64,000 nucleotides of DNA. Source: Thelonectria olida (Eukaryota; Ascomycota; Sordariomycetes; Hypocreales; Nectriaceae). Both the position numbers and the translations under genes were made by a program. The stretch lies in contig JAGPYM010000071.1 of assembly GCA_020736575.1 (NCBI GenBank), positions 40,152-104,151 on the forward strand. Reading direction: 5' to 3'. Under the pieces are notes generated by a model, which saw nothing but the letters and a program-made list of their open reading frames with translations, was not told the DNA's origin and did no database searches. Every line of letters begins with the position of its first letter. Positions within the stretch are counted from its first letter, which is position 1. This document shows, in pieces, positions 12,985 through 53,564 of the stretch.

Positions 12985-13061
12985 TCGGGAATATTAGAAT
13001 CTCCCGGAACTTCCGATGAGGAGATTCAACCTCCCGACTTCTCCAATAAGAAATCTCCCGA
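12985..13061. promoter_or_regulatory. Cluster of four TCGGGA-type motifs
   Basis: Within 77 bp there are TCGGGA at 12985 (+), a one-mismatch copy CCGGGAGATT at 12998-13007 (-), TCGGGAGGTT at 13028-13037 (-) and TCGGGAGATT at 13052-13061 (-). The last three fit the extended motif TCGGGANNTT, one with C in first position. They lie 520-600 bp upstream of the small gene ending at 12466. The CGG core is typical of Zn2Cys6 proteins. Binding is inferred, not shown. Confidence 0.55.
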
Positions 13062-14121
13062 CTTGTTTCTCAATAGTTCCCCGGTTTTCGTTTTCCAGGT
13101 AGGTACCTCTTGCGCCGTTCTGATATCGAAAATTTATTTGGTGCCTGGCATAGTAAGCTTGACGACGGGGTCAGATCCGTATGTTGTGATTGCTGCGGCG
13201 CTGCCCTCCAGCGTCTCAACTTGAGAGATTGTCAACGCTCACGCGCAGTAGCTGTTTCTGTGCTTAAGAGAACTAAGTGAAGCCCATCCCCAGTGTTGCG
13301 TGGCCCTACACTCACTCCGGCCGTTACTCTCAAAGCCGTGCCTGCATGGCCGTTGACTTAACAAGCCACGAACCCAAGCACACCGCGTTAAGGAGTGCCC
13401 TTTCTATGAAGAACCTGACTATAATGAAGCTCTAGCCACGTCTGCACTGTGACGGCTAGACAGACCCTGGCATCTGTCCTGAATTATTGACTATGCCACA
13501 ACCGGTAGCAATCTTCCGCTCCTTCAAAGGGATGCTTCGATCCGTGGCCCTGTCCCACCTTTCCAGAAGCAATGACGACCATGGCCAGCACAACAGGAGG
13601 GCTCAGAATCCAGAATATGTTCAAATAAAATTTAAATCAGATCGGGAATTTGAAATTGCAGATATCAGAACTCTCAAGGTACTAGTCAAGGATGAACTGC
13701 CCTAGGGTTCAATACTTCAAGAAGTTCTAGACGGAACTCCATGTTTTCTGCCAGCGACCGCAGTCACACGCTTTATTCTGGAATCTCTAGAGGCGAACCA
13801 CCCCGCATTCCACAGCAAGCACCTATCCTTCTCACTCAGCGCTGCAAGTGGCCGGAAGTTGAACGAGGTTGAAGTTACAAAACGAGAATGAGGTCTTCTG
13901 GCGCCAGCCACCCCATCAGATGAAACCTTGGATTTCGCTTTGGGATATGTGTGTACCAAGTTCAGAGGGCACCGGACTCGTAATTCTGGGATTCTCGTAG
14001 CCGACGTTTCGAAATGACTAGAGAATACTTGAATAATTACATGTTCTCATATCAACAGAGACGAAAGTTTAGCACCGCCGTTCCAAATAGAATTGTGCAT
14101 CTGGCCATTAGGGTTAGGCCA
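13062..14121. other. Intergenic region with one further motif, no gene recognised
   Basis: Composition is ordinary. Two short open frames (13487-13705 plus, 13717-13959 minus) show no recognisable domain. TCGGGAATTT occurs at 13642-13651. A small unannotated gene downstream of the motif cluster cannot be excluded, but nothing supports one directly. Confidence 0.4.
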
Positions 14122-15320
14122 TTATTCCGCATGTACCCGGATTAGGACCTTCCCCCGAGCCCTCTTGCTCGTGACCCGTTCGTACCCCTTCATAAGGTCC
14201 TCCATTGCAAACTCAGAGTCCAGAATGACGTTCAACTTTCCCTGTTCGACCATCTCAACCAGAGTCAAAACTTCCGGCATGTTGGGAGTATTGCTGAACA
14301 GGATGTACGGCCGAGGAATGCCCCCGAGCCAGGTCGGACGCCAGCTGTTCATGAACCATCGAAACATTTGGCTCAGGATGCCGTCTCCGAGATCGAAAGC
14401 GCCGATGTTGACCAAAGGACCACCGGGACAGAGATACCTTGGAGAGTTTTCGTAGAGGGCCTGCGAGCCAACACAGTCCACGATAGAGTCAAAAGGCTGC
14501 GAACCAAAGGCCGAGGCGAGATAGTCCGGCAGCGAGGCGTGTTTCTTGTAATCCACAAACTACAGACAGTAACACTCATTATTAGCAGAGCTCCAGAGCG
14601 TAGTAGAGGATAACTCAGGGTGAAGCATACCTCGTCAATTCCGTATCCTCGAACCAAAGCCTCGTTGGCACCACTTGCAACTCCCACAACGAAGGCGCCC
14701 CGGACACGGCACAGCTGCGCGGCGATGTGCCCGACACTCCCACTCGCCCCATTGATGAGCACCCGATGCCCCGGACGGACCTTTGCAGCTCGAACCACGG
14801 CCAGGGCGGTTGACCCGTTGGAGATGAGTCCAACCCCCTGAGGCAGGCTGAGGACCTGGTGCTCACCGACGCCCGCCTCCGAGAGCGGCACCACGTAGGC
14901 CTCGGGCACCCGCATGTACTCTTTCAGCGCGCCCGTACCGTAAAACAGCATGCTCATAGGGTCTGTCATGGCCAGCACGCGCGTGCCGGGCTGTCGTAGC
15001 CCTTCCGGGGCCTTGCCGCCGGCGACGACGACGGTGCCGGAGACGCAGAGCTCGGGGACCAGGGGCGGTGCAAAGGGCAGGGCGGGAAAGACGCCGATAA
15101 AGTGGGCGATGGAGAATTCGAGCGCGACGTAGGAGACGCGGACGACGACATCGCTGGAGTCCGGGCCGGGGACCGGCGGCGTGGGAAGCGTATCGACGAG
15201 CTTGAGGGACGACTTGTAGTGGCCGCGATACTGACGCACCCAGGCTCGCATGGTGAGCGGCATCGCTGCCGCGGGTTCGGAGGGTGTCATGTCCAGCTGC
15301 TGCACGTCTGCAGGTAACAT
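14122..15320 (-). CDS. Medium-chain dehydrogenase/reductase (zinc-independent, quinone-oxidoreductase-like)
   Basis: NAD(P)H-dependent oxidoreductase of the MDR superfamily. Two exons (14631-15320, 14122-14559) give 375 residues. It has the N-terminal GroES-like fold with TMRAWVRQYRGHYKS, then the cofactor-binding NGASGSVGHIAAQLCR Rossmann segment, a substrate domain and the C-terminal SKRARGKVLIRV ending. The structural-zinc cysteines of true alcohol dehydrogenases are not apparent. The intron 14560-14630 joins YGIDE to FVDYKK. I use the ATG at 15320; a second in-frame ATG is at 15290. It is divergent from the DHA2 transporter, sharing 553 bp. It is distinct from the trans-enoyl reductase at 18472 and could reduce a pathway enone, but lacks the promoter motif. 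Confidence 0.85.
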
Positions 15321-15873
15321 ATCGGATGCAGCCTGGAACGGATGGAGAGCGGTTTGGCGTGGCCTATAAGGGCGAGAGAGCGTCTCGCTGCTGGTGTCTT
15401 TCAAGGCAGGGAACCGGGCCGCTGTGCGAACGTCAGCTTCATTGACTGATCAACAAGCGAGCGCGACACGATCTGGACCCAAGCGCGATCAGGAATCTGG
15501 TTCAGCAGCTTCAAGTCAGGCAGTGTCGGGTTTGTCTGCAATTCAATGATAGATCCTCGCAAAAGAAAAAGAGGCCACGGGCGATGCTACGTCAGACCCT
15601 CCGAATTTCCTAATTAGGCAATCCTTAGTCCCCGAGCAAAACCCTCCGATAAGGCACAGACAGATCCCCTCCGTAGACCGCGACGGGACATGTCCTTTCT
15701 TTCATGTCGAAAATGCTGCATCCCTTTTGCAAGGGATGGCCTCCGAAATCCGAGATTAAGGGGCGAAAAAGAGAACCCTAGCCAGTAGGCAAACACACCG
15801 AACTCCATATATATGGCATCCGAACCCAGCGTCGCAGAGGATCGCCTTCAACCCACATACATCTCTCGCGAAA
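15321..15873. promoter_or_regulatory. Divergent promoter of MDR and DHA2 transporter
   Basis: This 553-bp region separates the two start codons. A TATATATA string at about 15807-15814 lies some 60 bp before the transporter ATG and is the likely core promoter. No TCGGGANNTT site was found, in contrast to the divergent promoter at 19648-20040. Confidence 0.5.
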
Positions 15874-18471: not shown

Positions 18472-19647
18472 CTAGGAGCTTGCCGTGTTATATAGAGGAT
18501 ACACTATCTTCTCACCCGAAATCTCCTTTCGTCGCATAGTTTCAATGCCATCGATCACCTTGTCCAGTCCGCCTTGCTTCAATGCTATTGGATGTGGTTT
18601 AAGCCTGCCTGAATCGTACAGGGCCACATATCTTTCTTTCCAGAGAACAAACCACTCGTGTAACTCGGGATTTGCCGCGCGATAGTAGCCTCCGGGCAAA
18701 TCAACTTCTTTCCCAGTCAATTCGAGCCCCATGGTCCAGTCCGCCTTGACAGACTTTCGCAATGTGGCAATCAGGTCATCCGGTAAGAGCTCGAAGCCGC
18801 AGTATTTGCCGCCTCCACGCCCAATGGCAGCATAGCAGTGCCGGATAGTTCGAGCTTCAGTAATGATGTCCAGTGCGTACTCCAAGCTGTTTTTGGTGTA
18901 TGCACGTATGTCCTCTCCACATGTCGAGGAGTGATAGTCAAAGGCCTTCTCGGCGCCATAGTCTTCCACCATCTTGAAGTTCTTCGGGGAGCATGTGGTG
19001 ATGACCCGGTAGCCAGACCTAAGTAAATATGGAGATCAGCTTCGGCGGTTTCATGCAGAGGACGGTGATATCACTTGCAGCTTTAGCAATTGGATAGCGA
19101 ATGTACCGCTGGCGGTAGAACCGCCGTAAACGAGGACGAACTTCGGCTCCTGAGTCGGTTCCTCGGGTGTTCCAGTCAGTCCCAACGTGATCCAGAGTGC
19201 CATCCCCACAGTGCTGGTCGTCGCGCACCCTATTGCGGCCGCTTGTTCCCAAGACCAACCATCTGGCACTTTCCAGACCATATCGTGCTCGTGTCTAATA
19301 TACTCTGCAAACGCCCCGGCCCATGGACGCCGACGGCTGGAGGCCACCTGAGCGCCTGCGACCCGGTCTCCGATACGGAGCCCTGATGTGAGAGCTGCGG
19401 ATTCGCCCATACGCACGATGGTTCCTGAATAGTCGGCTCCATCGACTGCGCCAGGGCATGGAACACGGCCAGGCATCTTCCAGTCGCAATGATTCAGCGC
19501 TACCGCTGATACCTTTATGAGGAGTTCATTGGTCAGAGGGACCGGGATTGGTCTGTTTTCGGATATTTCGAAAGTAACAGGATTTGTATCGGCCTGAACA
19601 ATCGCCTTTTGCGAAGTAGGCAGTGTTGGAAGGCTCATCGTTACCAT
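18472..19647 (-). CDS. trans-acting enoyl reductase (LovC-like MDR)
   Basis: NADPH-dependent enoyl reductase expected to act in trans on polyketide chains held by the PKS-NRPS, whose own ER region is degenerate. Two exons (19079-19647, 18472-19018) give 371 residues, close to LovC-type enzymes. Landmarks are QKAIVQADTNP near the start, ALNHCDWKMP, PGAVDGADYSGTIV, LVYGGSTASGTFAIQLLKLSGY cofactor region, TCSPKNF, and the family-typical YALDIITEARTIRHCYAAIGR. The intron 19019-19078 uses a GC donor (GCAAGT), which restores KLSGYRVITT. Start at the ATG 19647; an in-frame ATG at 19638 is equally possible. It is divergent from the cyclase gene and shares a promoter with three cluster motifs. Confidence 0.92.
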
Positions 19648-19813: not shown

Positions 19814-19905
19814 TCGGGAATTCGATATCACAGTTCGGGACTTTTTCTAAATGCCAGCCATTAGACCCGCATATAATATAACTTGGCCAAGCAGTTCGGG
19901 ACTTT
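19814..19905. promoter_or_regulatory. Three TCGGGANNTT motifs in the ER / cyclase divergent promoter
   Basis: TCGGGAATTC at 19814-19823, TCGGGACTTT at 19835-19844 and TCGGGACTTT at 19896-19905, all on the plus strand. The last two share the longer form AGTTCGGGACTTT. They lie between the start codons of the enoyl reductase (19647) and the cyclase (20041). A TATAATATA string at about 19872-19880 sits between them. This bidirectional promoter of two core genes is the best place to look for pathway-specific regulation. Confidence 0.65.
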
Positions 19906-20040: not shown

Positions 20041-21333
20041 ATGTACAGAAGTCTTACCGTGACAGCACTCGTTGGCGCTGCCGCAGTTCTTGCGTTTCAA
20101 TCACAAGTTCCGCTCAACCCTCCTTTTCCTGCAAGCCTGAATGAAGAATGGGACGATTCTTGTTCGATCAGCAAAAGCACCGCTTACGAAATGCACGATG
20201 GTCCCAACACCTTCTCTACATCGCCTTCTGAACATATACACTCGGTCAAAATCACACCAGCCATCAACGCGACAAATTGGGAGCAATGGGAGTTCGACGG
20301 TCTTTCGCATACCGGCCTATCTGGGCTCCTGATGGCATTTTCCAGAGATGCATCCTACGCCTTCTTCGGGCAGGGAAACCTCCGTGTGGAATTCTACATC
20401 ACGCTTGGCGATGGCACGGTGATCCAAGAACTGGACTACATCAGCGAATCTTACGTTATCGACTGCCCAGACTTTACCGCTGGGGTATGGAATAGTACGG
20501 ACAGGACTTACTCGTTTCATGTTACCAAAGACCACAAGTTCGCGAGACTGAAGTTCGACTCGTGGAGGATTCGTGGCGGCTTCACCATGTCCTCCAGCAC
20601 CACAGCTCACCTGGCTGACGGCTCGCCCTGGACTCCAGATGGCGGCAAGCCAGATGCGACCGAGATTTCTCCCGGGCTGTTTTACGGTCTTTCCATGGGA
20701 GGGGCGGAGGTCGATGTGGACGCCACTCTTTCATCTGGTAGGCGTATCGCGTTTAAGGGGAGAGGTGGCTCTACGCGTCTGTGGGCAGCCGAGGGCTGGC
20801 TCAAACTCTGCGAGGGCTGGAAGGTGTTCCGGTCTTGGGCGGGACCGTATTCCATCGTGTACTGGGACACGATGTCGCGTATGGGCAAGGGCGGCAAATA
20901 CGTCTCAGGCCACCTGTTCCACAACGATGAACTGCTGGTCGGTACCAAAGTTGGCAATGTTTCTGACAAGGACGATTACGTCTTGTTTACTGACAACTTT
21001 GACGGGGAGATGTCGGGCAGGTACAAAGACAAGAACACCGGCCATACTCTGGAGTTTGTCTCGCCTACCAAGGACAAGAAATGGAGGTTCGACTTGGAAC
21101 ATATTGTAACCCAGTATGAAATGGGTGCTGGTGCTGGCTTTGGCATGAGCGGGTTCGCAAACCGGGTAGTTGGTGGTGAGGTTGGTGGCGTGCAGTACGA
21201 GGGCAAGGGTCAGTCGGAACAAACCTACTGGCCGGAGCACATCGAAAAGTGGAAGATATGGCTCGTCTGGGGTCTTGGGTTCCTTGGAAAAGGGAAGACC
21301 TATGTTATGAAGTTGGTTGGCTACGTACTGTAG
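20041..21333 (+). CDS. Secreted lipocalin-like protein, candidate Diels-Alderase
   Basis: Single-exon 430-residue protein. It begins with a signal peptide (about residues 1-19, hydrophobic TVTALVGAAAVLAF), then NWEQWEFDGLS, GNLRVEFYITLGDG, many Trp/Tyr-rich strands, and near the end RYKDKNTGHTLEFV and KKWRFDLEHIV. These strings resemble the two-barrel lipocalin-like [4+2] cyclases of fungal decalin and cytochalasan pathways (Fsa2, CghA and relatives). That likeness is from memory of the family, not a search. The start at 20041 is the first ATG; upstream in-frame codons are not ATG. It lies between the trans-ER and the PKS-NRPS. Likely role: stereoselective intramolecular Diels-Alder reaction on the released polyene. 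An AttH/CrtC-like role in another reaction is the alternative. Confidence 0.82.
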   Translation: MYRSLTVTALVGAAAVLAFQSQVPLNPPFPASLNEEWDDSCSISKSTAYEMHDGPNTFSTSPSEHIHSVKITPAINATNWEQWEFDGLSHTGLSGLLMAFSRDASYAFFGQGNLRVEFYITLGDGTVIQELDYISESYVIDCPDFTAGVWNSTDRTYSFHVTKDHKFARLKFDSWRIRGGFTMSSSTTAHLADGSPWTPDGGKPDATEISPGLFYGLSMGGAEVDVDATLSSGRRIAFKGRGGSTRLWAAEGWLKLCEGWKVFRSWAGPYSIVYWDTMSRMGKGGKYVSGHLFHNDELLVGTKVGNVSDKDDYVLFTDNFDGEMSGRYKDKNTGHTLEFVSPTKDKKWRFDLEHIVTQYEMGAGAGFGMSGFANRVVGGEVGGVQYEGKGQSEQTYWPEHIEKWKIWLVWGLGFLGKGKTYVMKLVGYVL

Positions 21334-22118
21334 CCGTTGCTCTCGACTTACACACCAAGAAGATCAGCTTAGTATGCCAGGAAACGCAACTCCGTTTTCT
21401 TGGCGTAACGAAATAAGTACTGAGAGCCAATTCTCTGTTCTCGCTTGGTTCAATTTTATGATAAGTTATTTGATAAAAAGCTGCACCACTTCGTTTTCAA
21501 AGTGTATGTAGCTTTTTGTTTTAATTACAACGCTATAACGGAGATAACATGGCCAAGATAAATGGTTGAAATGTTGTCTTTTCTCCTACAAAGCTGGAAA
21601 CGGGAAAACTAATCAAGTATGTCACCTACATAGCGGCCTATCATGTTTGTGAGAACTTGCAAAATGACGTTTGCTAGTCAGCTGTGGGATGTTTTCCTAG
21701 GCATCAGCCGTACGGAGTTCATTTGTCAAAACTACCGAGTACCGCAAGCTGAGGACAGCCGTTGGTATCCCCAGCTGCGCAGAATCCGGCTTTCGGGGGT
21801 TCGGATCTTGTGCAAACCTCCGAATGCGCTCGTTTGACCGGCAGGAACCGAAATCCAGGGCTCCCATAGAATTTCCCGAAGTAATATCCTTGCAGGCCCC
21901 GACTCTAATCTGCTTCCGATTTCTTCCTTTACCTGAATAGGAAACTGATACTTTTGCTTTGAATGTATCAACAGCTTCGAAGAGTAATATTATCACCGTC
22001 TTGATAAAGTTATCTATCTGTTCTGCTCTATGTCCCATCAAACCCAAACCCTTCTATCTCTACGCACCCGACTTTGTCAGGTTTCAACAACGTATCGAAT
22101 CGATTTGCAGTCACCATC
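21334..22118. promoter_or_regulatory. PKS-NRPS upstream region with one motif
   Basis: This is 785 bp between the cyclase stop and the PKS-NRPS start. One extended motif lies on the minus strand: TCGGGAAATT at 21870-21879, 240 bp before the start codon. No clear TATA box. Short frames in this region show no domain. Confidence 0.5.
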
Positions 22119-25100
22119 ATGAGTGGTCAGGGCAATACTCAAGGCAGTGGCGGAAGAGAGCCCATTGCGGTTGTTGGAAGCGGGTTTCGATTCCCAGGCT
22201 CATCGAACAACCCCTCAAAGCTTTGGGAGCTTCTGCTCAAGCCACGCGATCTTCTGTCGAGGATTCCCGAAAACCGGTTCAACACAGACTCTTTCTATCA
22301 TCCAGATCCGTCTCATCATGGAACAACAGACGTCAGAGAGTCTTACTTTCTCGAGGAGGATCACCGTCAGTTCGATGCGGCCTTCTTCAATATCAAGCCG
22401 GTGGAAGTGCATGCGATTGACCCGCAGCAGCGTCTGTTGATGGAGGTGGTATACGAGTCACTCGAAGCCTCTGGAATGTCAATGGAGTCGTTGGCTGGGT
22501 CTCGGACTGGAGTCTATGTCGGGTTGATGTGTGCCGACTACGCTGAGCTCGTGAACAGCGATGTAAACACACTTCCAACCTACACCCCAACTGGAAACGC
22601 GCGAAGCATCATGTCCAACCGCATCTCGTACTTCTTTGATTGGCACGGACCGAGTATGACCATTGATACGGCGTGCTCATCCAGCCTGGTAGCAGTACAC
22701 GAGGCAGTCCAGTTGCTGCGCACCGGTGACTCGGATCTTGCAGTCGCCGCCGGATCCAATCTGATGCTCGCACCTCTTCAATATATTGCAGCGAGCAAGC
22801 TGAAAATGCTGTCCGCAAGCAGTCGATCTCGCATGTGGGACATCGACGCTTCTGGATATGCTCGCGGCGAAGGAGTTGCTGCTGTGGTCCTGAAGCGCTT
22901 GAGCTCTGCAATTGCGGATGGAGACCACATCGAGTGCATCATTCGAGAGTCGGGAATCAACCAAGATGGCCGAACCAAAGGCATCACCATGCCCAGTTCG
23001 GTAGCGCAGACAGATCTGATTGCGAGAACTTACGCCAAAGCAGGCCTGGACCCCAGAAACCCCAGTCAGCGCTGTCAGTATTTCGAGGCCCATGGAACTG
23101 GAACGGCTGCAGGCGATCCGAAGGTAAGAAACATTCCCGAACAATGGTTGACCATATGCTCACCTATAGTTCCCCAGGAAGCCGAAGCCATCAGCAAAGC
23201 CTTCTTCCACCCTGGTGAAGATATTTCTGGCAAAAGTGATCCCCTCTATGTGGGCTCCATCAAGACCGTAATTGGGCACACCGAGGGCACTGCAGGGTTG
23301 GCTGGTCTTCTCAAAGCTTCGCTTGCAGTTCAGCACGGCGTTATTCCGCCCAACTTGCTTTTCAATCAGCTGCATCCAGCTGTCGAACCCTTCTACACCA
23401 ACCTCGAGGTATTGACAAGCCCCAAGGCCTGGCCAGAGCTCGCAGAATGTGCCCCAAGACGTGCCAGTATCAACAGTTTCGGCTTTGGAGGCACCAACGC
23501 GCATGTTATCATCGAGAACTATGTCCCCTCACCAGTACAGAACGACCAAGTCGTTCCCACTCGCCACTTGACTCCTTTTAACTTCTCCGCCGCGTCGGAG
23601 AAATCCTTGAGAGGCATTCTGGCTGAATATTCGCACTATCTTCGACTGAATCCCGAAGTCTCTCTTCAAGATCTCTCCTACACATTGTATGCTCGAAGGA
23701 GTGAACATGCTGTGCGGACACACATCTCGGCAAAATCGGTCACGGATCTCTATACCAAGATTGATGATCTTCTGCGGGCGCCTTCCAGTGGCGGCAATGC
23801 CCAGAGCCTTGGGACCCGTTCGAAAGCATTGTCGAAACCAGTTCGCGCGCTGGGTGTGTTCACCGGTCAGGGGGCACAGTGGCCAACTATGGGGAGAGAG
23901 CTGGTCCGCCACTCTCCATACGCCAGAGAGCTCGTCCAGCAACTAGATACGATGCTGCAAAAGTTGCGTGAGGTGGAGCGGCCTGAGTGGTCATTGATGG
24001 ATGAACTCACATGCGACGATTCCCAGTCGCGACTCAACTCGGCTGTCATTGCCCAGCCGCTCTGCACCGTTGTCCAAATCATACTCTATGACCTCCTGGT
24101 TAGCGCAGGTGTCAACTTCCAAGCAGTCGTTGGCCATTCATCAGGAGAAATTGCCGCGGCATACGCGACGGGCTACCTCACTCGAGAAGATGCTGTCAAG
24201 GTTGCCTATTACCGAGGCTACTTCACCAACCTGACACCGTCGAACCGACCTGGTGCCATGATGGCCATTGGGACCTCGGTAGACGATGCCAATGAACTGT
24301 GTAGTCTGTCCATGTTCAAGGGCCGTCTGGCTGTCGCGGCTATCAACTCACCCTCCAGTGTCACAATTTCCGGAGATCGCGACGCTATCGAACGGGCCAA
24401 GGAGGTCCTCGAAGACGAGAAAAAGTTTGCAAGGATACTGAAAGTTGACAAGGCCTATCACTCTTCGCACATGATCTCATGTGCAAAAGGATATCTCGAG
24501 GCACTGAAGAGATCTGAGATCCACCCTCTATCGGGAAGAGATGACTGCGTGTGGTATTCTAGCACCCACGAGAACAGACAAGTGCACAGGCATGAAGATC
24601 TTGCAGGGCAATACTGGGCAGACAACATGGTCCAGCCAGTTCTTTTCTCGCATGCTGTTCAGGCAGCTGCAGCGGCAGGGGAGTCCTTTGATTTCGCCGT
24701 TGAGGTTGGGCCCCATCCGACACTGAAAGGACCTGCCCTACAAACACTTCAGGAGACCTATAAAGACACACTTCCCTATACCGGTCTCTTGCATCGTGGC
24801 AAGGACGATGTCGAAGCTTTCTCCGACGCTTTAGGTTACCTTTGGTCCCAATTCTCTCCCTCACTTGTGGATTTCCGAGGCTTTGATACATTGGCGTCGC
24901 GATGCGAGAATAGACATTTGGTGCACGATATACCCACATATCATTGGGATCACGACAACATCTTTTGGCACAAGTCTCGTGCAACAAAAGCCTTCCTCAG
25001 TCAAAAGACCATCCCCCACCCTCTACTTGGCACGAGAACGACGGATGTGATGGAGCAACAAATTCGATGGAGGAATCTTCTCCGACTGAGCGAACTCCCT

Positions 25101-28100
25101 TGGATTCGAGGTCATCAACTGCAGGGACAAGTGATCTACCCAGCCACGGCCTACCTTTCCACCGCCATGGAAGCCGCTATGTTCTTGGTCCCAGAGGGGA
25201 AGAATGCCGGTGTAATTGAAGTTCAAGACTTCAACCTTGGGAAGCCCCTCGTTTTCGGAGAAGATGGTGCTGGCATCGAAACCGTCTTCACCCTGAGCGA
25301 TATAGCCAAGGACGATGATAATACATACTCCGCTTCGTTCATTTATCACGCATCTAGCAATGCAGACACCGAACAACTGTCAACTCATGCTACTGGCAGA
25401 GTCATTGTCACAACCGGCGAAACCTCTTCACACTGGCTCCCATCGCGGGAGAGGGATCTCCCGAATCTGGTTAGCATCCCCGAGGATCGCTTCTACGCCT
25501 CCTTAGAGACTGTGGGATACGGCTACAGTGGATACTTCAAGACAATGTCGTCTATCAAGAGGAAATTGAATTTCTCGTCCTCCAAAATCCGAGTGCCTCC
25601 GCAAGACGAGGAACCCGGGAAGATGCTACTCCATCCAGCGATGTTAGACACTGCCTTGCAGGGAATCTTCTTGGCGTACTGTTGGCCGGGCGATGGTAGC
25701 CTCGACCAACTACATGTTCCGACTGGAATCAAGAGTTGCCGCGTGAATGTCGGCCTTTGCCAGCAACGCCTCGTGCCTGACACAGACGTGTCGTCTTGTT
25801 CCCAGCTGACTGGAAACCCTCTAGCTACGAAGAATCTCAACGGAGACGTTGAGATCTACACTGATGACGGGGCTTGTCTGGTTCAGATGGAAGCTTTAAA
25901 AGTTGTCGCCTTCGCCGAGCAATCTGCGGACGTAGATCGTGCCGTTTTCTCCGAGTACGTTTGGGGCGTGTTGGCTCCCAATTGTGAGCGTGCCATGGGC
26001 GGAAGGAGGGCAACCGCAGAGGACTACGAACTCGCTTACGCCATAGAGAGAGTCTCTGTCTATTATATGAAGCAGTTGGTCACTCTTTTCCCGGAACCCC
26101 TTCGGAAGACCATGGACCTGGAGTGGCACTTTATATGTCTCTTCAACTTTGTCACTGACGTCCTTTCGACTACCGAAGCTGGGGAAAGACAAACTGCTAA
26201 GAAGGAGTGGTTGCAGGATGACGCAGCTGAGATTGAAAGGATCAAAGCCAAGTAAGCGCTCGCCCGGCTCGTACGTCAGAGAAATTCGGTCGCAAAGATG
26301 CTGATCATTGTTCAGATATGCACACACGGTGGACATGCAGCTCGCCCGTGCCGTGGGTGACAATTTGCCTGCTGTGCTTCGAGGCGAAACAACCATGCTG
26401 GAGCACTTAACCAAGGACAACTTGTTGGATCGCTTCTACGAAGTTGGGCTGGGCCTGAAAGAGTTCTCAGGCTACCTCGGAAAGACTGTGGAGCAAGTCG
26501 TCCATCGTCATCCTCGTATGAAGATCCTTGAGATAGGTAAGGAAACCCAAGGTCTTATGGTGAGTGTCAACTGACATTATGTTAGGAGCTGGGACTGGTG
26601 GCGCCACCAAGGTCATCATGGGAGGTATCGGCCGTAAATTCTCCTCATATACCTATACCGATATCTCTCCCAATTTCTTCGAGACTGCTTCAGAAGTATT
26701 CGCTTCCGTTGCAGACAAAATGATCTTCAAGACTCTGGATGTGGAAAAGGACATCGTCCAACAAGGCTACGAAGATCATTCGTATGACCTAGTGGTTGCT
26801 TCGTTGGTTCTTCATGCGACTACGGATCTGAAGCGAACCCTGACCAATACTCGGCGACTGTTGAAACCTGGTGGTTATCTCATCATTCAAGAGGTTTGCA
26901 ACAACGAACCTTCCAGGACCGGGTTTATGATGTGTGCCTTACCAGGATGGTGGCTTGGCCAAGACGATGACAGAAAGCTATCACCGTGTGTGTCGACGCC
27001 CGAGTGGCATGAACTGCTCGTCCAAACAGGCTTCTCCGGTGTCGACTCTGCTACGCACGAGCTCGACTCGGTGCCCTTTCAACTCGCGGTCATTGTTTCT
27101 CAGGCTATCGACGATCGTGTCACCTTACTCCGCGAGCCTCTCGCTCTGGTCGGAAGCGACGCACCCTTGGATGAGCCCTGGGACTTGGTGCTTATTGGAG
27201 GCCAAACCTCGAAATCAACCCGGCTCATCGAGCAAATTGTCGGTCTGATCGAGTCCTCCAGCGTAACGCATACGATTATCAAGACTATCGACGACATCGA
27301 TGACGCACGAATCTCACCCACAACAGCCATCCTGTGCCTTGAGGATCTGGATGAACCAGTCTTCAAGAGAATATCGGAAAGGACGCTGGAGGGCATGAAG
27401 AGGCTTTTCGAAACACAAAGAACAATTCTATGGGTCACACAAGGGTGCAGATCAGCAGATCCATACATGAACATGTCAGTCGGGCTTGGGCGGACTTTGA
27501 TTCTGGAAAATCCCGACCTGGTCTTGCAATTCCTTGACCTGGAGACTGGTGCAGAGCCAAATTCCCGACAAATTCTCGAAGCACTGCTGCGCCTACGACA
27601 GAGCGATAGGTGGGAGAAAGAAGGAAAGTTCGATGATGTCCTATGGACAAACGAGCATGAGCTGGCCTATGACGACGAAGAACTTACCCTGTCTCGTGTT
27701 CACCTTGCCCGTCCCCTCAACGATCGATTCAACGCATCCAAACGAACGGTGCTCCAAAAGAAGAACCCGCAAACCGTCCCGCTGAACCTCTCTCTTGGAC
27801 CTTCGTTGAAGCATTCTCTTGTTTTGGACAATGCTTTAGCCGTTAGGATGCTCGGCTCACAGGAAATGGAGGTTGACTCCGAGATCCTCATCAAAGTCAC
27901 CCACTCACTTTTGATGCCCGACCTTGCGACACCTCTTCCGTCATACTTGATCCTTGGTACTACCAAAGCGATGAAGAAAACGGTTGTCGCCATTTCAGAT
28001 AACAACGGCTCATATGCTCTAGTCTCTTCAGAAAAAGTACTGGAGATCGAACTTCCTGCAGGCAAAGAGTCACTGCTGTTGTCTCACCTGAACAACCAAT

Positions 28101-31100
28101 TGCAGGTCGACAATATGCTGTCAATCTGTGAGAGAGGCTCTGTCCTGGTCATCCACGAACCCCATCCAGACCTTGCGTCAATCATCGTCGAGCGTGGCTC
28201 AATCGCAAATATCAAGTTGTTCATCACATCAACGTCTTCCGCGGACAGCTCGTGGACAAAGATTGATGCTTACTCCCCCAAGAGAGTCGTCCAGTCTTTG
28301 TTGCCTCCCAACATTTCAGTCTTCATTGATTGCTCCGCGAGCGGCCAAAGCCAGCGAGCTGGGTCTTTGATTGCATCATGTCTACCTCAGTCATGCCTCA
28401 AGACGACAGTTGCTGGACTTCCGTCACTGCGACGCATTCGCAGCTTCTCTGTTGGCGACTTGCACCAGACGCTCAGCACCACACTGCAGAGAGCTTTGAA
28501 GGAAGTCGCCGCACCCAGCAGCTCAAATACATTGCCTCTGATCGGATTGGATCAGTTAGTCGACGGCTCTGCGGTTGCTCCGTCTGCACCAGCTATTGTG
28601 GATTGGGGCATCAGTACCGAAGTTCCTGTCCAGATATCCACGGTTGACAGTCATGTTACCTTCAAGGGTGACAGGACATACGTCTTGTTCGGACTAACGA
28701 GTGATTTAGCCCAGTCTATCTGTGACTGGATGGTGACTCGCGGAGCCCGGAACATTATACTAACAAGTCGCAATCCAAAGATCGATGCCAAGTGGATAAA
28801 GCTCCTGAAGGAAGCTGGAGTCCGGGTTGAAGCCTTCTCAAAGTAAGATTGGGTTCCTGGCGGAATCCGTGAACGAGAAGCTGACAAAGTCGCAGTGACA
28901 TCACCAATAAAGTGGCCCTCGTTTCTCTCGTCAACCACATACGCCAGAGCTTCCCACCCATCGCTGGTATTGCTCACGGTGCAATGGTTCTCGACGATGT
29001 CTCATTTTTCGAGATGCCTTTCGAGAAGATGACCAAAGTCCTTGGACCCAAGGTGCAAGGCGCGATCTACCTGGACGAACTTTTCCAAGCGCCTTCTCTC
29101 GACTTCTTTATCTTCTTTTCCTCCTGTACAGCTATAGCCGGGAACCGTGGACAATCCGCCTACACCGCTGCTAACATGTTCATGTCCTCATTGGCGAGTC
29201 AGAGGCGTGAGAAGGGGTTGGCCGGTTCGATTCTTCATATCGGAGCGGTAATGGGTGTTGGCTACATCAACCGAGGATTCCGAGAGTCCATTTTCACTGC
29301 CCTCAGCCGGGCCGGTTACATGATGGTGTCAGAAAGAGAGTTCCATCTATGTTTCGGCGAAGCGGTCCTCGCCTCGCACCCTCTGTCTGGACGGAATCCC
29401 GACGTTGTGACGGCGCTGGAGACAGCGAATTTGGGCGACAACCCGCCTCTGTGGGCCAAGTTTCCTCGGTTTCAGTACTGTCTTCAAGCAGACGATGGAG
29501 CAATCAAACAAGCCCAGAAGAAGAACACGGCCACTGTGTCCACAAAGCTCAGACTGGCCGAGGCAACTACGGCAGAAGAAGTGCTTGAAATTGTCCAAGG
29601 TGAGTCTGTCGCGGTACAGCTGTTAACAAAATTTAACGTTGAAATAGACTCCTTCTACCTGAAACTTCGGGTTGTCCTCCAAATTCCAGATGAGACGGAT
29701 AAATCTCAAGTTCTGGCTTCCGGAACAGATGATCTTGGCATTGATTCTTTGGTGGCGGTCGAAATTCGCTCCTGGTTCTTGAAAGAAATCGAGACCGAGA
29801 TCCCTGTGTTCAAGGTCTTGTCTGGAGTCTCAATTACAGAGCTTATTGAATTCGCCGTTGAGAGCATGCCTGCAGAATTAACTCCGAACCGAACCGACGC
29901 CTTGAAGGCTCCTGAGCCAGAGGCGCCAGTCATCTCGCTGCCACCACCAGGCTCAGTCTCTTCGGTGCCGAGCAGCCTAACGAAGACCAATGCAGAAGCC
30001 AGCCAGCAGCTGAGTGAGAACAATTCCAACTCCAGCCAGCTGAGCGATAAACAAGACGAGGACAGAGGCTCATCCGATACCTCGCTGAATGAGGATTCAG
30101 AGACGACTTACGAGAAGGTTCTACCCGTATCCCCGGGCCAGTCGAGATTTTGGTTCCTGAAGCACTTATTGGAGGACCAGACGACGGCGAACAACACCAT
30201 CTTGGTCTCCATCCAAGGGCCAGTCAAACTCGACAATCTTGAGACGGCGGTTCGAAAGGTTGCAGATCGCCATGAGGCACTGCGCACCTCATTTTTCATG
30301 GACGTGAATCAGAAACCTGTCCAAGCCGTGTCAGAAACCTCTCGCTTGTACTTGGAGAAGAAAGTCCTCGACTCGGAGTCTCAAGCCGAGAAAGAATTCG
30401 ATACGCTCAAGAATCATGTTTACGACATTGAACATGGCGAATGTATGCGACTTGTCTACCTCGGTGTCACAGCTACGGAGAGTTATCTTCTCATCGGCTC
30501 ACACCACATCATCATGGATGGTGTCAGCTTGGAGGTCTTCTTGAACGACATCCAGAAAGCCTACAACGGCCAGAGCCTTTCAGATCAGGTCTACCAGTAC
30601 TCCGACTATTCCGAGAAACTACGTCAAGAGCTGGAACAGGGTACCATGCAAGAGGAGATCAAGTACTGGGAGTCAGAATTCGCTGACGCGCCTGCACCGC
30701 TGCCGCTGCTCCCCTTCGCAGCTGCGAAGCAGCGTAAATCTCTCACAGCATATGAGCACACCTCTGTAAGTCGCGTCGTTGATCCAAAGGTGGCGAGGCA
30801 GATCGCAGACACCTGTCGCAGGTTGAAGGCAAATGTCTTCCACTTCTATCTCGGGGTGTTTGAGGTGCTCCTCTTCAAGCTTTTCGGCACCAGCGACGTC
30901 TGCATCGGGATGGCAGATGCCAACCGTTGGAACGATCAAGTCTCTCAAAGCGTTGGAATGTATCTGAATCTTCTTCCGCTAAGATTCCGTCTTGACGGCA
31001 AGCAGTCATTCGAGGCTGTGCTCAAAGATACTCGTAGGAAGGCCTATCTCGCCATGTCAAACTCGAGGTTGCCATTCGATATCCTGCTCGACAACGTCAA

Positions 31101-34100: not shown

Positions 34101-34441
34101 AATGGAGCGGCTATGTCGATCTTATCACCGTCGAAAAAGCAGCTGCTGGGATCGTCGGCTCTGTCTTGAAGGAAAGACGGGACGATACTACAGCAACTGG
34201 AGTGGAATATCTTCATCATGCAGGAGAGAAGGTGATTCCCGCCCAATCAATCAAAACCCTTCTTAGTACCGATGATGAACAACATTGGGAGTCACTGGCA
34301 ATGCATGACTGGGTGGACAAGGCCGTCCAAAATGGTATGAATCCTTTGGTTGGCGAATTCCTCCGCTCGACAGACAAAGGGCAGGGTCTACAGATTGGAC
34401 AGAAGCTGTTGCTGAGACAGGGGGCAAAAAAAGACTTGTAA
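22119..34441 (+). CDS. Hybrid highly reducing PKS-NRPS (KS-AT-DH-MT-ER0-KR-ACP-C-A-T-R)
   Basis: Megasynthase building a methylated polyketide and joining it to one amino acid. Seven exons: 22119-23123, 23178-26251, 26316-26536, 26586-28842, 28896-29599, 29648-31447, 31515-34441; together 3995 residues in frame. KS triad C186, H325, H369. AT GHSSG with S656. DH H981 (HQLQGQVIYP) and D1159. C-methyltransferase LEIGAGTGG near 1434. A degenerate ER-like stretch lies near 1840. KR has S2262, Y2275 and N2279 but a changed cofactor loop at 2136-2142. ACP S2454. Condensation HHIIMDG at 2706-2712. Adenylation has D3226, YGPTE and the SGK lysine; carrier S3598. Terminal reductase has TGATGFLG at 3679 and Y3824-x3-K3828, so NADPH-dependent release looks possible; Dieckmann release is the alternative. 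Start is the ATG at 22119, just before REPIAVVG. Confidence 0.95.
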
Positions 34442-35636: not shown

Positions 35637-37084
<1,448 letters not shown>

Positions 37085-46340: not shown

Positions 46341-46534
46341 CCAGGCTATAATATAATTAATAATATAATATATAATAATTAAAATACTAAACATTTTAGT
46401 AATAAAATATAATAAAATTTAATTAAATAATAAAAGCTATATAGTAACTTATTATATATTAAAATATATAAAGTTTCTTAAATATATTAAATTAATAAAA
46501 AGTTTTAAAAGGTATTTAAAAACTTATAAGTTCT

Positions 46535-47430: not shown

Positions 47431-47640
47431 TATATAAACTAGAGTTTAAAAGAGTAGTACCTTTATATTAGAGGCCTGAAATAAGGTTCTTTAAATAAGG
47501 TTTATTTAATAAGGATTTTTATTTAAAAGCTAATTATAAATTTTATAAAAAAGCTTATTATAATAAATATAAGGCTGGGTTTTACTAATATTAACCTTTA
47601 TTATATACTAGTATTAGGCTTATTTTAATAAATAATAATA
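47431..47640 (+). repeat. Repeat family 1, copy
   Basis: First-part copy starting TATATAAACTAGAGTTTAAA, with AAGCTTATTATAATAAATAT and GGGTTTTACTAATATTAACC. It is closest to the 43200-43346 copy. Confidence 0.65.
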
Positions 47641-48348
47641 AAATATATTAAAAAGTTTATATAATAATAAAAATTACTAATAATAAATAAAAAGTTTTTA
47701 TAAGCTTTATTAAAAAGCTTAATATAAATATAAATTTAAATTTAATTTAATTATTATAAAATTAATTTAATTATTTATATAATATAAATATATTTATATT
47801 AATAACTATTAGCCTTATTAAAAAATATAAAGAAATAATTTTTAAAATAGTTTATATTTTATTAATATAACTACTTACTATTAGCTTAATAAAAAGCTTA
47901 CTTAAAGAGAAATTTATAAAATTTATTTAATAGTTTAAACTTATTAACTTTTTTAAATAATTAAAATATAAAACAATATATAAAAAGTGTAATATAATAG
48001 TAATACCCTTAAGCTAAAAAGGCGTATTAGATTGGATAATATATAAAGTATTAAATAGGGTAGTTTTATACTAATACTAGGGGCTTTATTAAGGCCCGGG
48101 ATGGCCTAATGCGTTCAGGGGAAGATAAACACTCGATCGATCACCGAGGACACCTCCTACAGAGACATCTACCCACACATTAAGACTATTAAAGTGCCGT
48201 GCTAGCTTTCCGACAGTTAACTCCTCTATTAGTGGGAGAATTCAACATAGAACTTGGCCTAAACCCTCTCGCATGTTCAGTGTCTGTTACTGTTTGTATC
48301 GCAAGCTATTTACTTCATTGCCACTCTGGCGTTTTCTTTCTTTCTTGT

Positions 48349-48837
48349 TTATAGTACCTTTAGCGCCGCAGTAACGAAACACACCCAAGCCGGCAAGTCA
48401 GTTAACAAGGCCCGACTCCAGTTCATCCTCAGCCAGCTCCCCATCGAATACGTAACATTTCCCTTCGGAAAGCCATTTTCGATATTTCCAATCCATTTCA
48501 GAGCCGTCGTTAAATATGCCATATGCGCAATGCTGAAGAGCAGGCCAATAGTGTACCACGATGTTGAGCCAGTGGCTTGAAGTTCATCCCGATTGATGAG
48601 TAGATTGAGGATACCCAGAGCGTAATTGAGGGGATAACCTATAATGAGGACCCAGCGCCACCGGAGGCCTCCTTTGGTCCACCAGGCTGGGAGATTGGCG
48701 TTTGCGCGTTCGCGGAGTGAAGGGTGCATCCAAGTTCCAAAGATGAGGTGCTCGTCAAGAGCGAACATGAGGACCCATGTGGAACTAAGAGCCGGAAGAA
48801 GGCGGAGAAGGCGAATTGAAGATACGATGAGAGACAT
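48349..48837 (-). CDS. Small integral membrane protein, about four TM segments
   Basis: Single exon, 162 residues, starting [15 protein letters not shown]. Hydrophobic segments lie near residues 8-28, 60-80, 90-112 and 140-160. Between them is the polar [12 protein letters not shown] loop and a loop with [20 protein letters not shown]. The composition and pattern look like a real conserved fungal membrane protein, but I cannot name a family or function with confidence. An in-frame ATG at 48963 would add 42 less hydrophobic residues; the shorter form is preferred because it starts directly before the first membrane helix. It is divergent from another small membrane-protein gene at 49581, and the shared region carries three cluster motifs. 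Confidence 0.75.
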
Positions 48838-49580
48838 GGTAGCCGGAGATTGGTGTAATTGAGTTTGTAAATGCTTAAAGTCGGACTTCGGGCAGTGAAA
48901 TTGACTGATGGCTGTGCTCTCCGCAGCTTTGAAGTAGCCGTAGATCGCGATAATCATAGCCATTTTATCCAAACGGAACGCTCGGGGGATGCCGAAATAC
49001 GCTTGCGGGTCTCGTCATGATCGTACGCCAGATGGTAAGATTTCAGCAGGATCATTTGCTGGAGAGGCAGACTGGTGCGATCTTTACTGCACCCGCAGCG
49101 AGGTGATCCATTCTGCAGCAGTCGGGTGGAATACCACTCACACATTAAGTCCCGAGTGTGAAAGGCGGCCCCATAGGCCGGAGTCCTGGGAGAAAATGAG
49201 GGGAAAGAGGAAGCAAAAGTCTCCTCCGCGCAAAAAAAGAAAAAAACTCCCGAGGGCATGTTCGAGTTCGGGAGATTTGACAAGCGACACCCAGAGCTAA
49301 GCCAGACATTCGTAACATTTCAGACTCCCCACGTCTATGTCATGCCATATATGACTCTCTAATTCTATGATTGCTCATATGACCGGAAACCAGATTTCAT
49401 CCATGGGCATCTGGTGAATACCCAACACAACAATCGTAAGTGAAGCAAGATTTCCCAAACCTATCCATAAACGTCCAACATTAAAAAGAATTCGATCACT
49501 AACAGGCCTACCAGCAAGTATCTACACGGCCCTGAGCCGATTACCAAACAAGTGGCGGACCGATCACTCCTCGCACCACT
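48838..49580. promoter_or_regulatory. Divergent promoter of the two membrane-protein genes, with three motifs
   Basis: Extended motifs TCGGGACTTA at 49146-49155 (-), TCGGGAGTTT at 49244-49253 (-) and TCGGGAGATT at 49268-49277 (+). The last two face each other as an inverted pair CTCCCGA / TCGGGAG with a 14-bp gap, a geometry many Zn2Cys6 dimers use. The same motif is found at the core biosynthetic promoters 29 kb away. Confidence 0.6.
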
Positions 49581-49955
49581 ATGGCTGCCCTCCACCTCTT
49601 GAGCGATGTGTTGTCATACGGCATCGCCGGCTTTAGTGCGCTCTGCGTCCAAGCGCATTTGACCTCAAAGTTTACGCCTGCCTTCTCCAGGAACCTGGAA
49701 GAAAAGTTGCCCGAACATAACAAGGCTGTCTTCTGGTGGGCTGGCATCTCTGATGCCGCCCTGAGATTCGTCTTCGTCTCAATCAATATCACCATAACGG
49801 TTTTGCTTTTGTCAGACGAGCTCAGGAGTTTCGGGCTGAAGTTTTCCCTTGCACTATTGGGCGTAGGCTTTTACTCGGACATGAAGTTGGGAGAGAGTCC
49901 GATTCCCCATATGTTGTTGTGCAGCATTGTGGGCGCGGCGATATGGGTGAGGTAG
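49581..49955 (+). CDS. Small membrane protein, three to four TM segments
   Basis: Single exon, 124 residues ([17 protein letters not shown]...). Hydrophobic stretches lie near 8-26, 47-70, 74-95 and 100-122, with a charged loop [13 protein letters not shown] in between. It looks like a compact DoxX- or DUF-type integral membrane protein, but I do not recognise the exact family. The coding frame ends at TAG in 49953-49955 and has no intron. It is divergent from the gene at 48349, with a motif-bearing shared promoter, so co-regulation is likely. Confidence 0.7.
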
Positions 49956-50578: not shown

Positions 50579-52153
50579 CTATATTGGCTTATAAACCATC
50601 TCACTTAGTTTCCGTATCTCTTCCCTCAACGCTTCTATTCGCTCTTTACAAGACGGCTGCCCCTGCATTCCCTCCTGCCCCAGTACGAAGTCTAGTAACT
50701 GCGGTGACATCGCTTTGCCGCAAGGGCCGTTCACATCTCTTTTTCGGGCTTGGGCCGTGGAGCTGTACGGGTGGCCGAGGTAGAGTCCAATTCTGTCAAT
50801 GAGTCGGACGACGACCTGAGTGAGAATTATGATTTGCAAATCAGAGTCTTCATGGACTGATACCCCGTTGATCTGAAAACCCGACAGCTCGAGCAGGGTT
50901 GCTTGGTGACCTGGGACGGGCAGGGCACCTCGGATGGCAGCGAAGACCTCTTGACAAAGCTGTATGAGATTGATATAGCAAGACATGACCAGAAGACTCG
51001 TAGGCATGTCGAGCCAAGCAATCTGAGGTGGGCTATCTTGACCGTGTCGGATTTCGGAGTTCGTATCCGACCGTGATCTCGGCCGTTCTCCATTTTCAAA
51101 TTCCGAGACAGTTTCCATGTCGGAATCCGCGAGACTCAATATACTGCTGGGGCAGTGCTTCGTTTTCTGCCATGTTACAGTGTTCTGCACCGATGCACCA
51201 TTTTTCTGGGAGCTGTGTTGCGAACCACGTCTAGCTGTCTCTTTGCAAGAATTCTGACTTGCAGCACCAAGAATCTCGAGAAGCAGTTCGTGAAATGTTT
51301 GTAATCCTTGAATCATGGACACAACGGCACACGAGAGAGGGGTTCTCTGGTCCGGTGAGTCCATTAAGCTGGGCTCGGTGGTCGCATATTCCTTGGCCAA
51401 TTGGCTTACGATGCTCAACTGCCGGTGGATTTCCATGTTTAAACCTGACAACTTCTCGACGGCTTCTTGTGGCCATGGTGAAGCAGGGAGAATCGCGTCA
51501 GCGTTTGGCTTCTCTACTGCGGTGTTACTGGTGGCCAGAGGTTCAATAGGCATGAATGGGGCGGGTTCCAATGGGCCACTTGTTGCTTCGGATCCGAACT
51601 CGCATATTCCGAAATCCGATTGCGCTCGGGTTACTTGAGGAGAGACAAAATCGAAATTCGCTTCAAAAAGGTCCTCTGGAGGAGCTATCCGCATCTGATC
51701 ATTGTCGAGGGCGCCGCTGTGCAGTCCGAAATCGAGAGACTCGAGATACTGAGCCCCCGCCAGATTCAAATCACCTGCGTCTTCCGAGCCATGGTCCAAC
51801 CACATACTACCATCCGTAGTAGGATTTTGAGAAGCTGCTTGAGATGACATCCGGCGGCCGGTCGGCGACTCTGGTGAAGGTATCGGCTGGGACTTTCGCG
51901 AGCTGGCCGTCCCCCGGCGTTCCTTATCTGTGCGCTGGGGCCGTCCCATGCGCACCGACAGATCGACAACGCAAGTTGCACCGGCCTTCTGGCATCTCTC
52001 ACAAGCATTATTGGGGTTTGGCGTTCGTGTACATCGCAGCTTCTGGCCTCTACAACGGTCGCATGCGAACTGTTGGTGCCGTTGTTGAGTTTTGGCAATT
52101 CCAGACGTTGGTTTAAAGCTAGGGAGGCGACCTGAGGAATCTGGCCGAGTCAT
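50579..52153 (-). CDS. Second AflR-like Zn(II)2Cys6 transcription factor
   Basis: Single-exon 524-residue nuclear regulator. Zinc cluster C31-x2-C34-x6-C41-x9-C51-x2-C54-x6-C61 in the CDRCRGQKLRC form, followed by a GRPQRTDKERR basic linker and a long Ser/Pro-rich middle. The C-terminal half contains MPTSLLVMSCYINLIQLCQEVF, which parallels VVLMCLSGYIQLLQIYNSIF in the gene at 10016-11365. The ATG at 52153 is the first in frame; the longer frame begins with a non-ATG codon. A perfect 27-bp palindrome lies 203 bp upstream. It sits within the span of the motif-bearing genes, between the membrane-protein pair and the hydrolase, and is a good candidate for the pathway regulator. Confidence 0.86.
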   Translation of the reverse strand: MTRPDSSGRLPSFKPTSGIAKTQQRHQQFACDRCRGQKLRCTRTPNPNNACERCQKAGATCVVDLSVRMGRPQRTDKERRGTASSRKSQPIPSPESPTGRRMSSQAASQNPTTDGSMWLDHGSEDAGDLNLAGAQYLESLDFGLHSGALDNDQMRIAPPEDLFEANFDFVSPQVTRAQSDFGICEFGSEATSGPLEPAPFMPIEPLATSNTAVEKPNADAILPASPWPQEAVEKLSGLNMEIHRQLSIVSQLAKEYATTEPSLMDSPDQRTPLSCAVVSMIQGLQTFHELLLEILGAASQNSCKETARRGSQHSSQKNGASVQNTVTWQKTKHCPSSILSLADSDMETVSEFENGERPRSRSDTNSEIRHGQDSPPQIAWLDMPTSLLVMSCYINLIQLCQEVFAAIRGALPVPGHQATLLELSGFQINGVSVHEDSDLQIIILTQVVVRLIDRIGLYLGHPYSSTAQARKRDVNGPCGKAMSPQLLDFVLGQEGMQGQPSCKERIEALREEIRKLSEMVYKPI

Positions 52154-52355
52154 GCTTAGATGGACGGTTTGTAAGGTAATCAATTTACCCGCCACTAAGC
52201 ACGGGAAGGGCTGGAGCAGCAAGAAAGAGACTTGGTTTTCACGCGGCGGAGGAGCCGACCTTTTTTTAGTATCGAGCGTTAGCTGAATGTAAGGAGGCTC
52301 GTTGGTCGGCGAAGGCGCGTTGATCCTACGGCTCCTTAGAGGCCGGTGTGTGGTG

Positions 52356-52382
52356 CAGTTATCTCACTGAGTGAGATAACTG
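52356..52382. promoter_or_regulatory. Perfect 27-bp palindrome upstream of the second AflR-like gene
   Basis: Arms CAGTTATCTCACT (52356-52368) and AGTGAGATAACTG (52370-52382) around a single central G. All 13 pairs match. The position, about 200 bp before the start codon, suits an operator for a dimeric factor. An RNA hairpin in a 5' leader is the alternative. Confidence 0.55.
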
Positions 52383-53540
52383 GTTGATCTCTTTGGCCTT
52401 ACGGCTGGATTGGTCTATTGACGGGCGAGTTACACCACGCTAACCCTTACACTGAGTAAGACGCGGGCCGTTGATGCATGTGGTATGTATGTGATAAAAA
52501 GTGACTGAGCAGTTATTAGTTTGTGGAGAAGTAGAGCTCAGGCCCTCATTGGCTTGTAATTGGGGGATAGAATTTTAATAAAAAGACTTAAATAAGATCT
52601 TAAAAGGATAAACTTTTCTCTTTTAAGCTATATTTTTCACTTTAGTAATAAAATAGAAATTAATATATATTTATTTGTATTTTAAAAAAAGTTATAAAAT
52701 ATTAGCTTTTAATAAAAATTTACTATTTATTTATTTTTATTAGTTTTAAAAATAAGTTAAAATATTATATATTATTTAAAATAAAAATTTTATTTTTAAG
52801 TTTTTAATTATATTAAATTAATATTAATATTTAAATATTTAGATTCTTCCCTAAGCTATAATAACAAGTATATATAATTTAATTTAAAACTGTTATTTTC
52901 ACACTTAACTATAAGATGGGGGGTGGATTTTAGCACTCCTGTATTAGTTAACGCCACGATTGTTATAAATGGTTAGCCGGTTGCGGCCAAACCTCCCTTG
53001 CGCTAAAAACATTGGGGCCGCTGCACTCGTAGTGCTTCTTCTTTAGAATCTCATGACAAAACGATTATCCCTTTAACTGAAAATAGACATGTTTGCTAGA
53101 GACTTGCTAATTGTTTATTAAAATTTGATAATTAATAAGGATCTCAACTTTTCGCGGAGAGAGGACAGCCTATGTGCCTATCCACGTTTAAGGGATACTG
53201 CGCGCTTGGGTTCAACTTGATCCATGGTGAAATCGATTGGCCTCATCCAGGGCAGCAATATTGCGTCGGCAGATTTAGTCGAATCCATTTCTCTGGGGGC
53301 CGCTGTTTAGTTTCCCAATGGCAGACCTAGTCACGATCAAGCAATTTCGCCATTTGCACTTTCCGGGCTTGGGAAGAAAATCCCCGGCTATGACAACCGA
53401 AGCTCTATCTATCATGTATGTCATCCAAAGCAAGAGACTAATGCATGATCTTTCGTTTATGGTACCCTCCAGCACGGCCAGTCTTCAAACTAGATAAAAG
53501 TGTGAAAGGCAATATGAGGCGGAAGGAGGACGAGAACAAA
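52383..53540. other. Intergenic region with AT-rich patch
   Basis: About 52570-52910 is AT-dominated and RIP-like. The remainder is ordinary sequence. A minus-strand frame at 53275-53475 has no recognisable domain. Nothing else seen. Confidence 0.45.
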
Positions 53541-53564
53541 AGTCCCGAAAAATGAAACTCCCGA
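53539..53564 (-). promoter_or_regulatory. Two TCGGGANNTT motifs upstream of the alpha/beta hydrolase
   Basis: TCGGGACTTT at 53539-53548 and TCGGGAGTTT at 53555-53564, both on the minus strand and 16 bp apart, about 300-325 bp before the start codon at 53864. They match the motif at the enoyl reductase/cyclase promoter, which ties the hydrolase to the core genes. Confidence 0.6.

Follow-up and report, generated by a model that had tools for sequence, protein, structure and literature searches.

The PKS-NRPS/Diels–Alderase locus

The window studied here, of 64 kb, closes a contig of Thelonectria olida that is 104 kb in length (C135:40152-104151; GenBank JAGPYM010000071.1), amounts to 0.12% of the genome (52.5 Mb, 165 contigs) and carries a polyketide synthase–nonribosomal peptide synthetase (PKS-NRPS) gene cluster in whose intergenic DNA a ten-base motif, TCGGGANNTT, recurs. 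An initial annotation had taken this motif to mark a putative regulon extending over 40 kb. The present analysis concerns the distribution of the motif, the genes that it accompanies and the proteins that may read it.

The genes of the window were annotated from open frames together with Pfam, NCBIfam and Protein Data Bank (PDB) sequence matches; their limits are approximate, and introns were modelled for a single small gene only. A PKS-NRPS with KS, KR, C, A and PCP domains and a terminal reductase-like domain (22119..34441, + strand, introns included), a LovC-like trans-enoyl reductase (trans-ER; 18472..19647, - strand) and a DA_N/DA_C-type cyclase with Fsa2 and CghA among its relatives, the Diels–Alderase (20041..21333, + strand), lie side by side, which is the arrangement of a fungal PKS-NRPS/Diels–Alderase cluster. 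To their left is the small gene (11841..12466, - strand), with two exons in our own reading and no Pfam family, which has one other match in the genome at 33% identity. To their right are memb1 (48352..48963, - strand, with a start perhaps at 48837) and the smaller memb2 (49581..49955, + strand), both judged by eye to encode membrane proteins and neither assigned to a Pfam family, as well as a FrsA-like alpha/beta hydrolase (53864..55141, + strand), which falls far short of the cut-off set by NCBIfam for FrsA proper. Structure predictions from one sequence each, with a mean predicted local distance difference test score (pLDDT) of 46.9 for the small gene and 50.0 for memb1, were set aside. Two Zn2Cys6 proteins are also encoded in the window, TF2 (10016..11365, - strand), which adjoins the small gene, and TF3 (50579..52153, - strand); they are related to each other and are the candidate readers of the motif.

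Distribution and anatomy of the exact copies

The window contains 12 exact copies of TCGGGANNTT against 2.09 expected, a chance figure that the initial annotation had correctly put at about two; the maximum over 100 shuffles was seven, none of them reaching 12, and the genome's own rate would place 1.86 copies in the window. Ten of the copies are intergenic, and all of these were located where they had first been reported. The other two, previously mentioned without coordinates as lying in PKS coding sequence, were traced to 27507 and 27559 (27507..27568, - strand), 42 bp apart inside the coding DNA of the PKS-NRPS and close to a one-mismatch form (27570); they constitute one of the six tandem pairs at most 61 bp apart found in the genome.

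Upstream of the small gene, in region A, two sites lie about 560-590 bp from the ATG at 12466: TCGGGAGGTT (13028..13037, - strand), at 562 bp, and TCGGGAGATT (13052..13061, - strand), in tandem with it at a gap of 14. A third, TCGGGAATTT (13642..13651, + strand), lies on the 3' side of a second alcohol dehydrogenase (ADH) gene, 1.18 kb before the small gene, and is the weakest promoter assignment. The divergent promoter between the trans-ER and Diels–Alderase genes has two tandem copies of TCGGGACTTT (19835..19844 and 19896..19905, both + strand) with a gap of 51, and TCGGGAAATT (21870..21879, - strand) stands approximately 250 bp before the PKS-NRPS ATG at 22119. Between the two membrane-protein genes, which are also divergently transcribed, TCGGGAGTTT (49244..49253, - strand) and TCGGGAGATT (49268..49277, + strand) form a divergent pair with a gap of 14. 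Finally, TCGGGACTTT (53539..53548, - strand), 325 bp before the hydrolase ATG at 53864, and TCGGGAGTTT (53555..53564, - strand), in tandem with it at a gap of 6, occupy an intergenic region common to the hydrolase and TF3, about 1.4 kb before the latter.

The placement of these copies is markedly uneven. The window comprises 32.3 kb of noncoding DNA, of which 17.0 kb were divided into five core intergenic regions (4409 bp in all) and a further 14 (12639 bp); the limits of the regions predate the final start codons, including that of the small gene at 12466, and are offset by at most 76 bases. The core regions contain ten exact copies against 0.20 expected, the 14 other regions none against 0.32 expected, and the 20 kb of the left flank (loci L043 and L044) likewise none. 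All ten intergenic copies lie in DNA of normal GC content, and the remaining noncoding DNA, which is mostly AT-rich, is without a copy. The five core regions adjoin seven genes, namely those for the small protein, the trans-ER and Diels–Alderase, the PKS-NRPS, the two membrane proteins and the hydrolase. Half of the intergenic copies (five of ten) fall in the PKS-NRPS, trans-ER/Diels–Alderase and hydrolase regions, whose membership of the pathway is independent of the motif, and close pairs of exact sites are present in four of the five core regions. The description of the sites as promoter elements applies loosely: for six of the seven genes the nearest start codon is 145-340 bp from the sites, provided that the upstream ATG of memb1 is used, and the sites of the small gene are at least 560 bp away.

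Within the ten intergenic copies, position 7 of the motif is G, A or C and never T, and nine of them have T or A at position 8. The motif contains a CGG half-site, and its TCGGGA portion taken alone is not confined to the three places initially listed, one of which, given as 16206, is in fact at 16208: 37 occurrences, 18 of them intergenic, are present in the window. A search for CGG, CCG, TCG or CGA triplets at a fixed offset of up to 45 bp found none that was shared by more than three of 14 sites. A classic Zn2Cys6 site for a dimer, with its second half concealed in the flanks, was therefore rejected, no CGG or CCG recurring at a fixed spacing within this range. The overall pattern fits a protein that would bind the ten bases as one unit.

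It might be supposed that all copies go back to a single promoter segment that was duplicated, or to a mobile repeat, and are alike through shared descent, not selection. Promoters can be copied during cluster formation, and AT-rich blocks occur in the window. However, between -10 and +19 no column outside the ten bases is common to all ten sites, the best being T at +13 (eight of ten), followed by A at -3 and T at +15 (seven of ten each). Moreover, the orientation of the sites differs both within and between promoters, and their spacing also varies from one promoter to another, with intergenic tandem gaps of 6, 14 and 51. Because the flanks differ outside the ten bases, the sites are not taken to be copies of a longer repeat or of a duplicated promoter, and such an origin is disfavoured to the point of being scarcely credible.

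Across the whole genome, where promoter and non-promoter sites are taken together, the motif is not enriched, with 1529 sites against 1768 for a reversed-pattern control. A census of exact pairs at most 61 bp apart found eight places in the genome, five of which are in the window, one of these being the coding pair. Tandem pairs 0-30 bp apart number three (two in the window; two for the reversed control), as do those 31-61 bp apart (again two in the window; none for the control), so that the two tandem pairs outside the window equal the two of the reversed controls. One convergent pair was found at 0-30 bp, outside the window (control, none), and none at 31-61 bp. Divergent pairs were searched with a shortened left half at gaps of 4-34 and 31-61, a procedure in which a full pair shows on both strands; it returned 12 rows (control, 19) and 11 rows (control, 16), respectively, and the pair at 49244/49268 is the only full divergent pair in the genome at gaps of 4-61.

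As judged by eye, the pair on contig C99 falls within a coding frame and adjoins a Zn2Cys6-like frame, that on C146 is situated between the 3' ends of transporter-like and bZIP-like genes, and no gene clearly starts beside that on C122. On the evidence of the pairs, a wider regulon was considered and rejected, as none of these three places is to the eye a convincing promoter. The genome's only convergent pair at gaps of 0-61 is at C146:33544-33570 (positions 2044-2070 of locus L055) and consists of TCGGGATATT and its mirror image, separated by 7 bp.

These counts bear on the possibility that the site is real and its reader is encoded outside the cluster, as a global or wide-domain factor distinct from both TF2 and TF3. 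The tie of TF2 and TF3 to the motif is that of candidates only, and further Zn2Cys6-type genes are present in the genome, with 13 matches to TF3 outside the window. A wide-domain factor should nevertheless leave paired sites before other genes, and only the three pair places just described, of eight, lie elsewhere. The genome total below that of the reversed control points in the same direction, as far as a count of single sites that mixes promoter and non-promoter DNA can. An external reader is accordingly considered rather unlikely.

Several observations weigh against a regulatory role for the motif, and some of them leave room for a statistical accident, in which a motif singled out in hindsight happens to cluster. 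The motif was indeed chosen after the window had been viewed, and it partly guided the division into core and other regions: the small gene and the membrane genes are assigned to the pathway chiefly on its account. The two copies in PKS-NRPS coding DNA may be due to chance or may represent an internal element. Self-regulation would be doubtful, neither candidate regulator having a copy close by: the upstream region of TF2 contains no exact copy, and TF3 has none within 400 bp, the nearest being the pair at 53539/53555 in the region that it shares with the hydrolase. Real DNA outside the window also reaches similar top counts for other patterns. In an enumeration of one-gap eight-base patterns with at least four G/C and at least three different letters, the best pattern occurred 7-17 times when applied to seven 17-20 kb batches of mixed coding and noncoding DNA taken outside the window. 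These batches were drawn from 33 of the 55 fetched loci, leaving out the window's own, eight chosen through the motif, most of those that overlap, and three final loci of 15 kb in total; two loci, L017 and L039, still overlap, and palindromic patterns are counted twice. When open frames of at least 100 codons were masked in 35 loci outside the window, the best pattern reached eight in a 17.1-kb batch (a palindrome, counted twice), followed by seven, and six in the remaining 11.1 kb; the same mask leaves 8.1 kb of the window, in which the motif has five copies and ranks joint first with GACTTGCT.

The one-mismatch forms add to this side of the balance, as they are not enriched, though such forms would ordinarily be expected of a degenerate protein-binding site. 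Matches with at most one mismatch number 49 in the whole window against 51.8 expected, and one-mismatch forms number six in the core intergenic regions against 4.07 expected, a value reached by 45 of 200 simulations. The three variants proposed as sites in the initial annotation, CCGGGAGATT (12998, - strand), TCGGGAATTC (19814..19823, + strand) and TCGGGACTTA (49146..49155, - strand), are present, and a fourth form at 12985 (+ strand) makes a pair with the first (12985..13007). Three of these four lie within approximately 30 bp of an exact site or of another variant. Because the one-mismatch class is at background both in the window and in the core regions, none of the four has statistical support or carries weight alone.

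Against an accident stand the confinement of all ten intergenic copies to the five core regions, the close pairs in four of these regions and the occurrence in the window of five of the genome's eight close pairs. In addition, the motif comes first in the enumeration over the 17.0 kb of annotated intergenic DNA of the window, with ten copies against maxima of 6-8 in 30 order-2 Markov nulls. The high raw count of a best pattern is suggestive, not decisive, and the case is carried by placement together with genome-wide pairing. The motif is real and, in its placement and close pairs, concentrated at this locus, and a chance run is very unlikely. As a shared mark of the pathway genes, the motif proposed initially is well supported for its exact copies, and its three variants lack statistical support.

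Candidate regulators and a model for the site

The CGG core and the presence of two related Zn2Cys6 genes in the cluster make a Zn2Cys6 factor a plausible reader of the motif. The Zn_clus domain is above its curated cut-off in both TF2 and TF3, and Fungal_trans_2 is also among the Pfam matches of the window. The two proteins share 46 of 156 residues (29%) over an N-terminal alignment that includes the zinc cluster, with a second match near the C-terminus. TF3 sits between the membrane-protein and hydrolase regions, both of which bear the motif, and for this position it would be slightly preferred over TF2; the pair at 53539/53555 may also act in TF3's own control. The best of the TF3 matches outside the window, at C86:84143, has a KS domain (C86:88763) about 4.4 kb away, which is consistent with membership of a family of cluster regulators. 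The 3.2-kb surroundings of five of the 13 matches (L046-L050) are without the motif.

We infer from these features that TCGGGANNTT is probably the site of a pathway-specific transcription factor, most likely TF2 or TF3, that would jointly switch on the core PKS-NRPS/Diels–Alderase genes. The site would serve as an upstream activating element for the genes of the small protein, trans-ER, Diels–Alderase, PKS-NRPS, two membrane proteins and hydrolase, and would be read by one or other of the two cluster-borne proteins. The zinc cluster would recognize CGG, and residues next to it would read the T and GANNTT on either side. Each site would be bound as a single unit with free orientation and spacing, and two close copies per promoter would lead to higher occupancy. 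A stronger version of this model is put forward tentatively. In it, two related in-cluster regulators would use a Zn2Cys6 site that is a single unit and of undescribed specificity (TCGGGA followed, after two bases, by TT, with no second CGG), and this site alone would unite a Diels–Alderase pathway divided by some 14 kb, of which about half is AT-rich.

The split in question lies at 34-48 kb, where seven of the 14 one-kb steps have a GC content of at most 31%. The occurrence of the motif on both sides of this gap argues that the genes at 48-55 kb are still members of the pathway. If a common site is indeed read at all of these promoters, the motif would provide an objective gene list for the pathway that includes three proteins without a Pfam family, the two membrane proteins and the small protein being marked as pathway members, and that excludes the transporter at 15868-17644, the second ADH gene, the protease and the phospholipase. 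It would also bridge a gap (34.4-48.3 kb) that could mislead cluster-boundary tools, and would reduce the question of TF2 or TF3 to one binding experiment.

A cluster regulator acting through a shared promoter site is a textbook arrangement, known from TerR, XanC and AflR, and what would be added here is a new site within it. AflR, a Zn2Cys6 protein, is likewise an in-cluster regulator with a TCG half-site; its site has two halves, whereas TCGGGANNTT has T where the second half requires C. The AflR site, as quoted elsewhere (PMC8406171), is TCGN5CGA, and the initial statement that the motif is not this palindrome was right. As a candidate for TCGGGANNTT it is incompatible by its letters; TCGN5CGA itself is found in the window, in 28 rows over both strands.

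The nearest published parallel for single-unit binding is TerR of the Aspergillus terreus terrein cluster, which has a zinc binuclear DNA-binding domain and was reported to bind a single CGG, for the most part as a monomer (PMC4360782). Its motif emerged from an in silico search of cluster promoters, and its high-affinity sites precede genes that are required for the product and were not detected before three dispensable ones (PMC4360782). The likeness thus extends to the TCGG core, the cluster regulator and the promoter motif. In contrast, the TerR site, TCGGHHWYHCGGH, has a second CGG, while here TCGG is followed by G with no second CGG at a fixed distance; TerR binding was measured, whereas that at the present site is predicted. 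The TerR site was also tried directly on the window: TCGGHHWYHCGGH has one match, at 19777, which is none of the ten sites.

XanC of the A. fumigatus xanthocillin cluster differs further, being annotated as a bZIP protein with the site AGTCAGCA, tested by mutation, and resembles the present case in that xanC, like TF2, is reported to lack its own site upstream (PMC8406171). For TopC of the Tolypocladium top cluster, which makes pyridone alkaloids, a Zn2Cys6 regulator reported to bind its cluster promoters, the consensus obtained with MEME is a T-rich 20-mer without CGG and so differs from the present motif (PMC10609478). String-matching searches with partial coverage of the literature found no site of the TCGGGANNTT type in print; the trichosetin paper (PMC5408200) contains no motif, binding-site or consensus wording, and the accessible parts of PMC12895699 and PMC10512409 have no bearing on the site. 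A tie of the family-less proteins to pyrrocidine-type pathways, suggested by PydY (PMC11109268), is only a lead.

Neighbouring genes and AT-rich DNA

The upstream DNA of other neighbouring genes, which encode two transporters, an M20 peptidase, a lactamase-like protein, the second ADH, a subtilase and a phospholipase A2, is without the motif. AT-rich blocks are present at 40000-44000, 46000-48000 and 55000-64000, with 8-27% GC in 14 of 15 one-kb steps, the exception being 56-57 kb with 42%, and may be said to resemble the product of repeat-induced mutation in fungi. The phospholipase A2 gene (44615-45104; Phospholip_A2_3) is small and forms an island between such blocks, and the adjacent DNA at 45105-45829 contains no copy of the motif. 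Lipase-like open frames at 45830-46356, recognized by eye, have no obvious start, stand beside AT-rich DNA and have the look of a gene remnant.

Three further matches to the Diels–Alderase were found in the genome, in loci L039 (C157), L041 (C114) and L042 (C88). The 3.4 kb around each is without the exact motif, and the matches on C157 and C114 share their contigs with a PKS KS domain.

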